A stretch of DNA of 64,000 bases from the NCBI RefSeq assembly GCF_900343025.1, contig NZ_OUND01000002.1, positions 372,001-436,000 of the forward strand, given 5' to 3'. The DNA comes from Arsenophonus endosymbiont of Aleurodicus floccissimus (GTDB lineage Bacteria > Pseudomonadota > Gammaproteobacteria > Enterobacterales > Enterobacteriaceae). The notes beneath the pieces are model-generated. The model did no database searches. It was not told where the DNA came from and saw only the letters and a list, made by a program, of their open reading frames with translations. The translations under genes were made by a program, and so were the position numbers. Shown here in pieces: positions 61,435-64,000 of the stretch (its first letter is position 1; each line of letters begins with the position of its first letter).

Positions 61435-63071
61435 ATGGCAGCTAAAGACGTAAAATTTGGGATTGACGCCCGTGCAAAAATGCTTCGTGGAGTGAGTATT
61501 CTTGCTGATGAGTTAAAGTTACTTTAGGTCCGAAAGGTCGTAATGTAATTCTGGATAAATCTTTCGGAGCACCTTCGATTACTAAAGATGGGGTATCTGT
61601 TGCGCGTGAAATCGAGTTAGAAGATAAATTTGAAAATATGGGTGCTCAGATGGTAAAAGAAGTTGCATCTAAGGCGAATGATGCAGCAGGTGATGGCACA
61701 ACCACAGCAACAGTACTCGCTCAATCGATTGTTAGCGAAGGTTTAAAAGCGGTTGCTGCCGGCATGAACCCAATGGATTTAAAACGCGGTATTGATAAAG
61801 CGGTTTCTGCGGCAGTTGAAGAATTGAAAAAATTATCTAGACCGTGTGCTGAGAATAAAGAGATTGAACAAGTCGGTACGATTTCGGCTAACTCTGATAA
61901 AACCGTCGGTGAATTAATTGCTAAAGCAATGAAAGCAGTTGGTAAAGAAGGCGTGATTACCGTTGAAGAAGGTTCCGGTTTAGAAGACGAACTAGCTACT
62001 GTTGAAGGTATGCAATTTGATCGCGGTTATTTGTCTCCTTATTTTATTAATAAGCCAGATATGGGTTCTGCTGAATTAGAAAATCCCTATATCCTATTAG
62101 TAGATAAGAAAGTTTCTAATATCCGTGAATTGTTACCTATATTAGAAGCTGTTGCTAAAGCAGGTAAACCTCTGTTGATTATTGCTGAAGATGTTGAAGG
62201 TGAAGCCCTGGCAACATTGGTGGTAAACAACCTACGTGGTATTGTAAAAGCTGCTTCGGTAAAAGCCCCTGGTTTTGGTGATCGCCGTAAAGCCATGTTG
62301 CAGGATATTGCTATTCTAACCAAAGGTGCTGTTATCTCTGAAGAGATCGGTATGGAGTTGGAGAAAGCGACGCTAGAAGATTTAGGTCAAGCGAAGCGCA
62401 TCGTTATTAACAAAGATACCACTACTATTATTGATGGTATCGGTGAGAAAAGCACGATTAAAAGCCGTATCGAACAAATTAAGCAACAACGTGATGAAGC
62501 AACCTCCGATTATGATCGTGAAAAATTGCAAGAGCGTATTGCCAAGTTATCAGGCGGTGTTGCGGTGATTAAAGTAGGTGCTGCAACTGAAGTTGAAATG
62601 AAAGAGAAACGTGCTCGTGTCGATGATGCGTTGCATGCAACTCGTGCAGCCGTAGAGGAAGGTATTGTTGCTGGAGGCGGCGTTGCTTTGGTTCGGGTTG
62701 CAGCTACATTAGATCAGTTGAAAGGTGACAACGAAGATCAAAAAGTTGGTATTGATATCGCCCTACGCGCGATGGAATCACCTATGCGCCAAATTGTTGA
62801 GAATGCGGGTGAAGAGTCAGCTGTAGTTGTGAACAATGTTAAGCAAGGTAAAGGCAACTACGGTTATAACGCTTTAACTGAAGAGTATGGTGATATGCTT
62901 GACATGGGTATCCTGGATCCAACTAAGGTTACTCGTTCCGCTTTACAATTTGCTGCCTCAATCGCCGGTCTTATGATCACAACTGAAGCTATGGTAACTG
63001 ATTTACCAAAAGAAGATAAAGCTGATCTAGGTGCTGCTGCTGGTATGGGGGGTATGGGTGGTATGATGTAA
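61435..63071 (+). pseudogene. groL: Chaperonin GroEL with a one-base deletion near codon 26
   Basis: The first 25 codons ([20 protein letters not shown] then SILAD) are in frame, then GATGAGTTAAAG at 61507-61518 lacks one base and the frame hits TAG at 61525-61527. From GTT at 61512 the correct frame, [20 protein letters not shown], runs unbroken to 63071 with [25 protein letters not shown] and the GGMGGMM tail. Restoring one base gives 545 residues, normal length. The break lies just before the ATP-binding TLGPKG loop, so translation from the internal ATG at 61638 could not give a working chaperonin. As groEL is normally essential, this is either a sequencing error or a sign of a second copy. 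Confidence 0.9.
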
Positions 63072-63107
63072 GGTATTAAAATCCTAACATCCGTTATCCT
63101 TATCACG

Positions 63108-63150
63108 ATAAGAACCCTGAGTTTAACTTTTGACTCGGGGTTTTTTTATT
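63108..63150 (+). terminator. Rho-independent terminator after groL
   Basis: AACCCTGAGT and ACTCGGGGTT (63113-63142) form a stem around TTAACTTTTG, followed by TTTTTTT. Position just past groL fits the end of the groE operon. Confidence 0.85.
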
Positions 63151-63440
63151 ATCAAATTTTTATCTGTTTGTTATTTGATTTCATTAAGGTTTGCTAGCCA
63201 CTGGTTATTGGCTTTAAGTCTATTTTTTCACATAATATGATTTAATTTTGCGATAATATGATTTAACCGAGTATATTTACTACAATAGGGTAAAATGTTG
63301 TTAACACGCTGGTATAAAACATTGATGGCCAAACCATTTGGTTGGATATTATGTTGTTATTGATAATAAGCTTAATTTGGCAAAAAAATTCGGTAATGTA
63401 AGCGTTGATATTAATATATAGCTAAAAGTAAATGAGGGAC
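63151..63440. other. Intergenic DNA with a short direct repeat
   Basis: No gene is visible. TAATATGATTTAA occurs twice (63235-63247 and 63255-63267), about 20 bases apart, of unknown meaning. The promoter of yjeI must lie here. Confidence 0.5.
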
Positions 63441-63443
63441 AAC

Positions 63444-63788
63444 ATGCGAATTAAAGTATTGCTTGGTGCCACTTCCAGGCTGGGCATTAACAAAACGAAC
63501 TTTTTCGCCCGCGGTAGTAATTTTATTGGTTGTTGAACAGCCAACCAAGACGAATAGAGTGAATGCCAGCATCTAGGGCCGATTACCGGCACTTAAAGTA
63601 ATTGTCTTAGTGGCTGGCTAAATAATGAGTCTAGTTTACTGCGTGGTGCAGCAAATGATTTACGTATAAAGCTGCTCAGATGGGAGGCAATGTTATTTAT
63701 GGCGCCAATAGCCCAACGGAAACGTTACTCTCGAGTTTTATTCCTATTGACAGTAAAATTGATAGGACAAGTTTATAAGTGTCCATAA
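63444..63788 (+). pseudogene. yjeI: YjeI-like lipoprotein with an internal micro-inversion
   Basis: YjeI (DUF4156) is a small lipoprotein downstream of groL in E. coli. The start MRIKVLLG (63444) and the second half (SNCLSGWLNNESSLLRGAAN from about 63598, then GGNVIYG, and finally GQVYKCP ending at TAA 63786-63788) read rightward. The lipobox part (MLAFTLFVLVGCSTTNKITT then AGEKVRFVNAQPGS) reads leftward at 63471-63587. GTGCC (63466-63470) and GGCAC (63588-63592) bound it. Turning the segment back joins all parts in a single frame, interrupted only by TAG and TAA codons. Shifts near 63675 and 63763 further damage the rightward part. Confidence 0.85.
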
Positions 63789-63795
63789 CGCATGC

Positions 63796-63838
63796 TAAGC
63801 ATGATCCTGAATAATATAGGATCATGCGTTTTATCATG
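63796..63838. terminator. Probable bidirectional terminator between yjeI and epmB
   Basis: GCATGATCCT and AGGATCATGC (63802-63830) form a 10-bp stem with a GAATAATAT loop, followed by GTTTTATC. It lies between two convergent genes. Confidence 0.75.
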
Positions 63839-63849
63839 TAGCTAAATCG

Positions 63850-64000
63850 TTATTGTAATTGTAAGTCAATCGGTGTTTTACTCAATTTTCCACCTATTTC
63901 TCGGGTTAATCTCGGTACCAGATAGCCTGAGATACGGGTAAGCAGTTCTTTCATTATGATGCGAGCCTCTTCATCCGTTACCATAAAATGGGCGGCACCT
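63850..64000 (-). CDS. epmB: EF-P (R)-beta-lysylation protein EpmB, C-terminal part
   Basis: EpmB is a lysine 2,3-aminomutase-type radical SAM enzyme that makes (R)-beta-lysine for modification of elongation factor P. Only the last 49 codons lie in the window: GAAHFMVTDEEARIIMKELL, ISGYLVPRLTREIGGKLSKT and PIDLQLQ before TAA (63850-63852). This is the conserved C-terminus of the family, and the position after groL-yjeI matches E. coli. No lesion in the visible part; the start and radical SAM core lie beyond the window. Confidence 0.92.
   Translation of the reverse strand, partial: GAAHFMVTDEEARIIMKELLTRISGYLVPRLTREIGGKLSKTPIDLQLQ

Follow-up and report, generated by a model that had tools for sequence, protein, structure and literature searches.

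Introduction

Microinversion is a known kind of mutation that has seldom been described in bacteria. In apes, inversions at inverted repeats of at least 3 nt have been catalogued, and the human–chimpanzee set consists of reverse-complemented segments of 17–33 nt whose length is kept and whose edge repeats go down to 3 nt (PMC8755829). Among the literature matches listed, one comparable bacterial micro-inversion was present, namely a non-variable 24-bp inversion inside a gene of an evolved E. coli KLY strain, which has 8-bp flanking repeats, alters the gene product and arose in the laboratory (PMC4272514); no report of micro-inversions in Arsenophonus was found among these matches. Quasipalindrome-associated template-switch mutations of E. 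coli, for which a switch at the replication fork has been proposed, make the arms of an imperfect hairpin perfect and do not require RecA (PMC6357072); the same class is the topic of PMC7202029. In yeast, the spacer of an inverted repeat within a gene can be turned by template switching, with arms of >9 bp that enclose only a few bp (PMC8604942), and in invertons a DNA segment in or beside a gene is inverted reversibly by an enzyme at repeats of 10–40 nt (PMC11892184).

In the Arsenophonus endosymbiont of Aleurodicus floccissimus, 90 nt of the yjeI gene have been replaced by their own reverse complement with the length unchanged, and a second flip of 185–193 nt is present in the same genome. 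The two share with the primate events the reverse-complemented segment, the kept length and the very short edge repeats, but they are longer and lie in a bacterium. The yjeI flip is placed inside a bacterial gene and alters its product as in the KLY strain, but its edges are 3 nt, it is 90 bp long and the gene has other lesions as well. It differs also from the quasipalindrome mutations in that no imperfect hairpin is seen, from the yeast inversions in the length of arms and spacer, and from invertons in having edges of only 3 nt.

Genomes and comparisons

The window analyzed here is a stretch of 64,000 nt, corresponding to positions 372,001 to 436,000 of the forward strand of contig NZ_OUND01000002.1 in the genome of the above endosymbiont (G000; 3.0 Mb in 11 contigs), and positions without a prefix refer to this window. 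We compared it with eight other Arsenophonus genomes (G001–G008), which include Arsenophonus nasoniae DSM 15247 (G001), the Arsenophonus endosymbiont of Aphis craccivora (G005) and Candidatus Arsenophonus triatominarum (G007); G006, an assembly of 330 contigs, fits the Arsenophonus endosymbiont of Bemisia tabaci. When these eight genomes were searched, the whole groEL–yjeI locus was present in five (G001, G004, G005, G006 and G007), G003 matched upstream of yjeI only, and G002 and G008 gave no match to the locus. Concerning the kinship of G000, G005 and G007, the three pairings have 1, 2 and 1 shared sites in 1186 columns upstream, counts that do not show whether G005 or G007 is nearer to G000. 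A search of Rfam gave no match at 62900–64000, and a listing of repeats and a scan for promoters and terminators contributed nothing to the interpretation. Within G000, the yjeI locus has a single match at E 0.001 or better, and gene conversion from another copy was rejected on this ground. The 80 named loci (the best 80 of 191) had been selected for coding a relative, and therefore constitute no test of orientation.

Inversion of 90 nt within yjeI

The preliminary description, which was made from the sequence of the window, had placed yjeI at 63444–63788 and had proposed that its lipobox-coding stretch lies on the strand opposite to both ends of the gene; the sequence, the open reading frames and the relatives all confirm this span and this arrangement (Table 1). 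In all five genomes carrying the whole locus, an opposite-strand match was found at the orthologous place, extending from query position 221 to 307–313 (63470 to 63556–63562 in the window), with E values from 2.7e-26 to 1.7e-33 that are far beyond chance. When the block of the window is turned, it is identical to the native block at 83/90 positions in G005, 84/90 in G007, 81/90 in G001 and 83/90 in G004, whereas the unturned block is identical at 19, 17, 18 and 19 of the 90 positions, respectively. For G006, whose block of 91 was aligned with gaps, 78 positions agree after turning against 24 without it. The spacing from GGTGCC to GAATG is 90 nt in the window and in four relatives and 91 nt in G006, and the left flank reads GGTGTC, not GGTGCC, in G001 and G004. 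The flanks are collinear and the length is preserved, as in a microinversion, and the 27 columns of 63444–63470 are all free of G000-only and G005-only changes. Since all five same-genus genomes with the whole locus have the native orientation and only G000 the inverted one, the state found in the window is the derived one.

Table 1. Positions of the yjeI inversion, its parts and neighbor, and the second micro-inversion.
Feature	Position	Strand	Remark
groEL, upstream neighbor	61435–63071	+	one match in G000
Native 5' part of yjeI, start codon and nine codons (MRIKVLLGA)	63444–63470	+	same place in 5 relatives
Left edge microhomology CAC	63470–63472		junction read from the sequence and relatives
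Inverted block, 90 nt: signal-peptide core, lipobox and start of the mature lipoprotein	63471–63560	−	opposite-strand match in 5/5 genomes with the whole locus
Premature TGA put in frame by the inversion	63534–63536	+	frame from 63444 closes after 30 codons; ORF 63432–63536
Right edge microhomology GTG	63559–63561		junction read from the sequence and relatives
Native 3' part of yjeI (DUF4156 region)	63561–63788	+	stop at 63594–63596, 3-nt insertion, two frameshifting indels
53-codon antisense ORF made by the flip, old lipobox behind a new ATG	63411–63572	−	ORF list
Second micro-inversion	G000:C3:280350-280542		193 nt as matched, 185 between the shared edge letters; 155,000 nt from the yjeI flip

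The existence of a micro-inversion is thus borne out by the five relatives, while the extent and the repeats assigned to it had to be revised. A flip of 117 nt (63471–63587) between GTGCC (63466) and GGCAC (63588) had been proposed; both 5-mers are present and the minus-strand ORF extends past 63560, but positions 63561–63587 match the five relatives at 21–23 of 27 positions directly against 8–12 of 27 when turned. Because this portion is native in all five, the flip is 63471–63560, GGCAC lies 27 nt outside it, and the longer version is refuted for practical purposes. The block edges share three complementary letters, CAC and GTG, and the inverted-repeat run is likewise 3 nt in G005 and G007. 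When 90-nt flips were placed at random in G005, up to 200,000 in number and without those touching N, 6.1% had a run of at least 3 at their edges, so that the short inverted repeat characteristic of microinversions is present here at a length expected by chance in about 6% of cases per event.

State of yjeI and of its neighbor

In G007 the orthologue is intact and codes for a DUF4156 protein (PF13698, 112.3 bits against a cut-off of 28.9), and in public records some relatives of this protein are named yjeI. Of the two pieces of yjeI in the window, one of 34 aa has no match to PF13698 and the other of 32 aa scores 14.4 bits, under the same cut-off. Among the best 120 of 371 relatives of the G007 protein, the top one is 95% identical, and none of the four inspected by eye resembles the pieces in the window. 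For the antisense ORF made by the flip, one match was found among predicted proteins, on a contig as long as the one that carries the window.

The flip takes the signal peptide and lipobox out of frame, and the window holds no intact reading frame containing both, the lipobox being inverted and a stop and frameshifts being present. Besides the flip, we found an in-frame TAA (63594–63596) and three indels: 3 nt are inserted near 63615, 1 nt is missing near 63665, and 1 nt is inserted near 63755–63760. The last of these has a counterpart at the same place in G005. The preliminary description expected that reversal would join the gene in one frame, but re-inversion alone leaves the in-frame stop and the two frameshifting indels, and no open gene results. 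The copies in G001, G004 and G007 are intact, that of G006 is damaged in other ways, and that of G005 is frameshifted near its 3' end. Because the block of G005 is native and its gene nevertheless carries the extra base at the same place, the tail lesion may be older than the flip if it is common to G000 and G005 by descent; two separate events are also possible, because the shared sites do not rank the kinship of G000, G005 and G007. Substitutions specific to G000 occur at 2/90 positions in the flipped block, 9/224 in the 3' part and 7/381 upstream, and the low count in the block means that the flipped sequence itself has hardly decayed. Because yjeI is damaged in G005 and G006 too, it appears that several symbiont lineages can dispense with the gene.

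In groEL, a lone 1-nt deletion relative to G005 was found near 61526. The gene is otherwise constrained, with 45 synonymous against 13 nonsynonymous codon changes, and for this reason we read the deletion either as an error of sequencing or as a loss that happened very recently.

Gene decay is widespread in G000. We took 1392 ORFs of G005 mechanically from its whole chromosome, and 162 of at least 200 aa were fully aligned; in G000, 66 of these carry neither a frameshift nor a stop substitution, a single frameshift is the only lesion in 14, a single stop in 8, and the other 74 carry at least two lesions. The ratio of nonsynonymous to synonymous changes among changed codons is 1.29 for the ORFs with two or more lesions against 0.68 for the 66 intact ones. 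With decay on this scale, it is unsurprising that a gene under relaxed selection should carry a flip.

Scan for further micro-inversions

We scanned 450 kb of the genome of about 3.0 Mb (G000:C3:1-450000) against nearly all of the chromosome of one relative, G005, for flips of about 20–200 nt. About 316 kb of G000 was covered at 94.5% identity, and the blocks used sum to 338 kb with overlaps. Of 193 places with low identity or small gaps that were scored, two stood far above the rest as inverted: the inversion excess was 161.5 at G000:C3:280350-280542 and 63 at yjeI, and the next place scored 4. Beyond these two, no micro-inversion of 20–200 nt was found in the 450-kb scan, about 316 kb of which is alignable to G005. 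As a control, artificial flips were spiked in, and 140 of 150 with lengths of 20–193 nt were recovered (24/30 for 20 nt, 28/30 for 30, 30/30 for 50, 29/30 for 90 and 29/30 for 193), without any false call at an excess of at least 8 in three runs; with flips of 300 nt the recovery was 2/30. A separate list of opposite-strand pieces contained four rows, and the sole piece nested at its own place was that of 193 nt.

The second flip sits where two convergent genes meet, and both open frames of G005 end within it. These genes, which have convergent 3' ends there, are transporter-like as judged by eye. The other orientation is found in G001, G004 and G005, and in a 94-nt part kept in G007, and the segment has no match in G002, G003, G006 and G008. 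Its edges share TAA/TTA (3 nt), for which the chance is 6.2%. From the distribution of orientations among the relatives, both flips most likely arose on the branch leading to G000.

Possible origin of the flips

Concerning the event by which the 90-bp stretch was replaced by its own reverse complement, we hold a template switch of the replication fork at the 3-nt microhomology to be the most likely route, with a confidence somewhat better than even. The fork would change its template to the opposite strand at the microhomology, copying in reverse would yield the turned stretch, and the fork would then switch back; the switch would be independent of RecA, and its product would be retained in the decaying genome. 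We infer that copying, not cutting, made the flip, and that it was kept since a decaying, symbiont-like genome had no further need of the gene. Template switching is favored because it explains the conservation of length, the microhomology at the edges and the unequal junctions. In the four-point model of PMC7954356, copying goes to point 1, runs in reverse from point 2 to point 3 and resumes at point 4. When the junctions were read by hand, a clean reciprocal flip missed one base beside the right junction in both events, and at yjeI the base 63558, just within the right edge repeat, is compatible with an unequal switch or with one later substitution. Unequal switch points, as in the four-point model, fit both junctions without extra mutation, whereas for a clean flip to fit as well, one substitution has to be added next to each junction. 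The misfits could equally be later substitutions, in view of the G000-only changes in the block and the 3' part given above; since such changes occur at 2–4% of sites around yjeI, we estimate that one substitution would fall within 3 bases of a junction by chance in perhaps 6–12% of cases per event, which is suggestive only. Both independent events share the 3-nt microhomology at their edges, each with a chance of about 6%, but two events are few.

Template switching at a hairpin was the explanation offered in the preliminary description; the switching part is retained as the favored mechanism, and the hairpin is abandoned as the trigger, because the native strand of G007 folds no better than its shuffles (z 0.12). 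An ancestral imperfect hairpin of the quasipalindrome type is likewise not seen in that strand, the edges of which pair over 3 nt only.

The main rival to a fork switch is microhomology-mediated break repair, in which the sister chromosome is copied in the wrong orientation to mend a break in the block, as in microhomology-mediated break-induced replication, and the same product results. Such repair has been proposed for microinversions with very short repeats, the authors of PMC8755829 doubting template switching at repeats of 3–4 nt and preferring break-induced replication, and the edges here are of this size; but that model was drawn for eukaryotes, and the product bears no readable signature of a break by which sequence alone could separate it from a fork switch. 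We regard break repair as possible, though rather unlikely. The exact preservation of length would also be compatible with cutting and rejoining, in which the block is turned without copying, either by two breaks and the joining of their ends or by strand exchange between the 3-nt repeats. This route requires two nearby breaks twice over, together with an extra substitution beside a junction in each event according to the reading by hand, and appears improbable to us.

The orientation in G000 is known from the assembly alone, the lone deletion in groEL may be a sequencing error, and an independent assembly of the same species, searched for among predicted proteins, was not found; a block turned only in the assembly has therefore to be weighed. 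However, there are no long repeats at the breakpoints to mislead an assembler, the locus is single-copy in G000, the block has lineage-specific changes of its own (2/90), a second, unrelated flip is present, and G000 has no surplus of 1-nt gaps (230, compared with 275 in G005, in 329 kb of aligned columns), all of which make an artefact very unlikely. A programmed intragenic inverton serving phase variation of a surface lipoprotein is a further candidate, as a lipoprotein gene is a plausible target and Chanin et al. are said to have reported in 2024 that invertons can lie inside genes. Its probability is slighter still: the two flips have no repeat sequence in common, the stop and frameshifts in the rest of yjeI mean that flipping back restores no open gene, all five relatives have one orientation, and the repeats of 3 nt fall short of the 10–40 nt given for invertons (PMC11892184).

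recA and repair genes

In G000, recA (G000:C7:233050-234250) is a pseudogene: compared with G005, substitutions have produced two premature stops, 1 nt and 12 nt have been deleted at one place each, and 2 nt have been inserted; a match to recA was not found in the 330 contigs of G006. The large subunit of ExoVII limits template switching, and in G000 its frame is open, as are those of ExoI, RecC and MutS; the loss of nucleases or of mismatch repair, considered as a cause of raised switching, is not indicated by these frames. The large subunit of ExoVII has no match in G005 and a split match in G006. In E. coli, template switching is limited by RecC, a part of the RecBCD nuclease, and by ExoI according to a title cited in the same paper (PMC6357072); that these limiting proteins are present counts against a template switch. 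The paper also states that template-switch mutation goes on without RecA, that recA mutants show no raised constitutive rate of template-switch mutation and that a block of SOS raises it 9-fold (PMC6357072); the loss of recA would therefore permit the event and need not promote it.

As a separate observation, SbcC_Walker_B has only one matching stretch per genome in six genomes. The frame containing it is 1484 aa in four genomes, a length presumably corresponding to MukB, 317 aa in G006 and 260 aa in G000, where the sole match (G000:C2:224965-225231) includes two stops.

Implications for symbiont genomes

Pseudogenes in degenerating symbionts are usually put down to point mutations, indels and insertion sequences. 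A clean flip is a further route of gene decay besides these, and small flips may have been overlooked in this respect. Aligners can show a flip as unrelated sequence or as a cluster of substitutions, the latter having been noted for the 24-bp case (PMC4272514). In comparison with that case, the two flips here are longer, have shorter edges and lie in a naturally decaying genome.

For the human–chimpanzee set, 59 events of 17–33 nt are given for about 3 billion bases and a divergence of about 1% (PMC8755829), and G000 and G005, which diverge by about 5.5%, yielded two events over about 316 kb. Per base and unit of divergence, this would be roughly 50–60 times above the former set, a figure to be taken as a lead and not as a rate, given the different size classes and the small number of events. 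We put forward tentatively, and consider doubtful in its full form, the view that genes in young symbiont genomes regularly decay through micro-inversions of about 50–200 bp at 3-nt microhomologies, a route that has been overlooked, and, in addition, that their rate is markedly raised in the Arsenophonus lineage lacking recA, since without RecA and SOS stalled forks would be rescued by strand switching; the raised rate is read from the two flips, each placed on the G000 branch, that an alignment of about 316 kb contained. The natural loss of recA in a genome makes the question of RecA directly testable over many sites.
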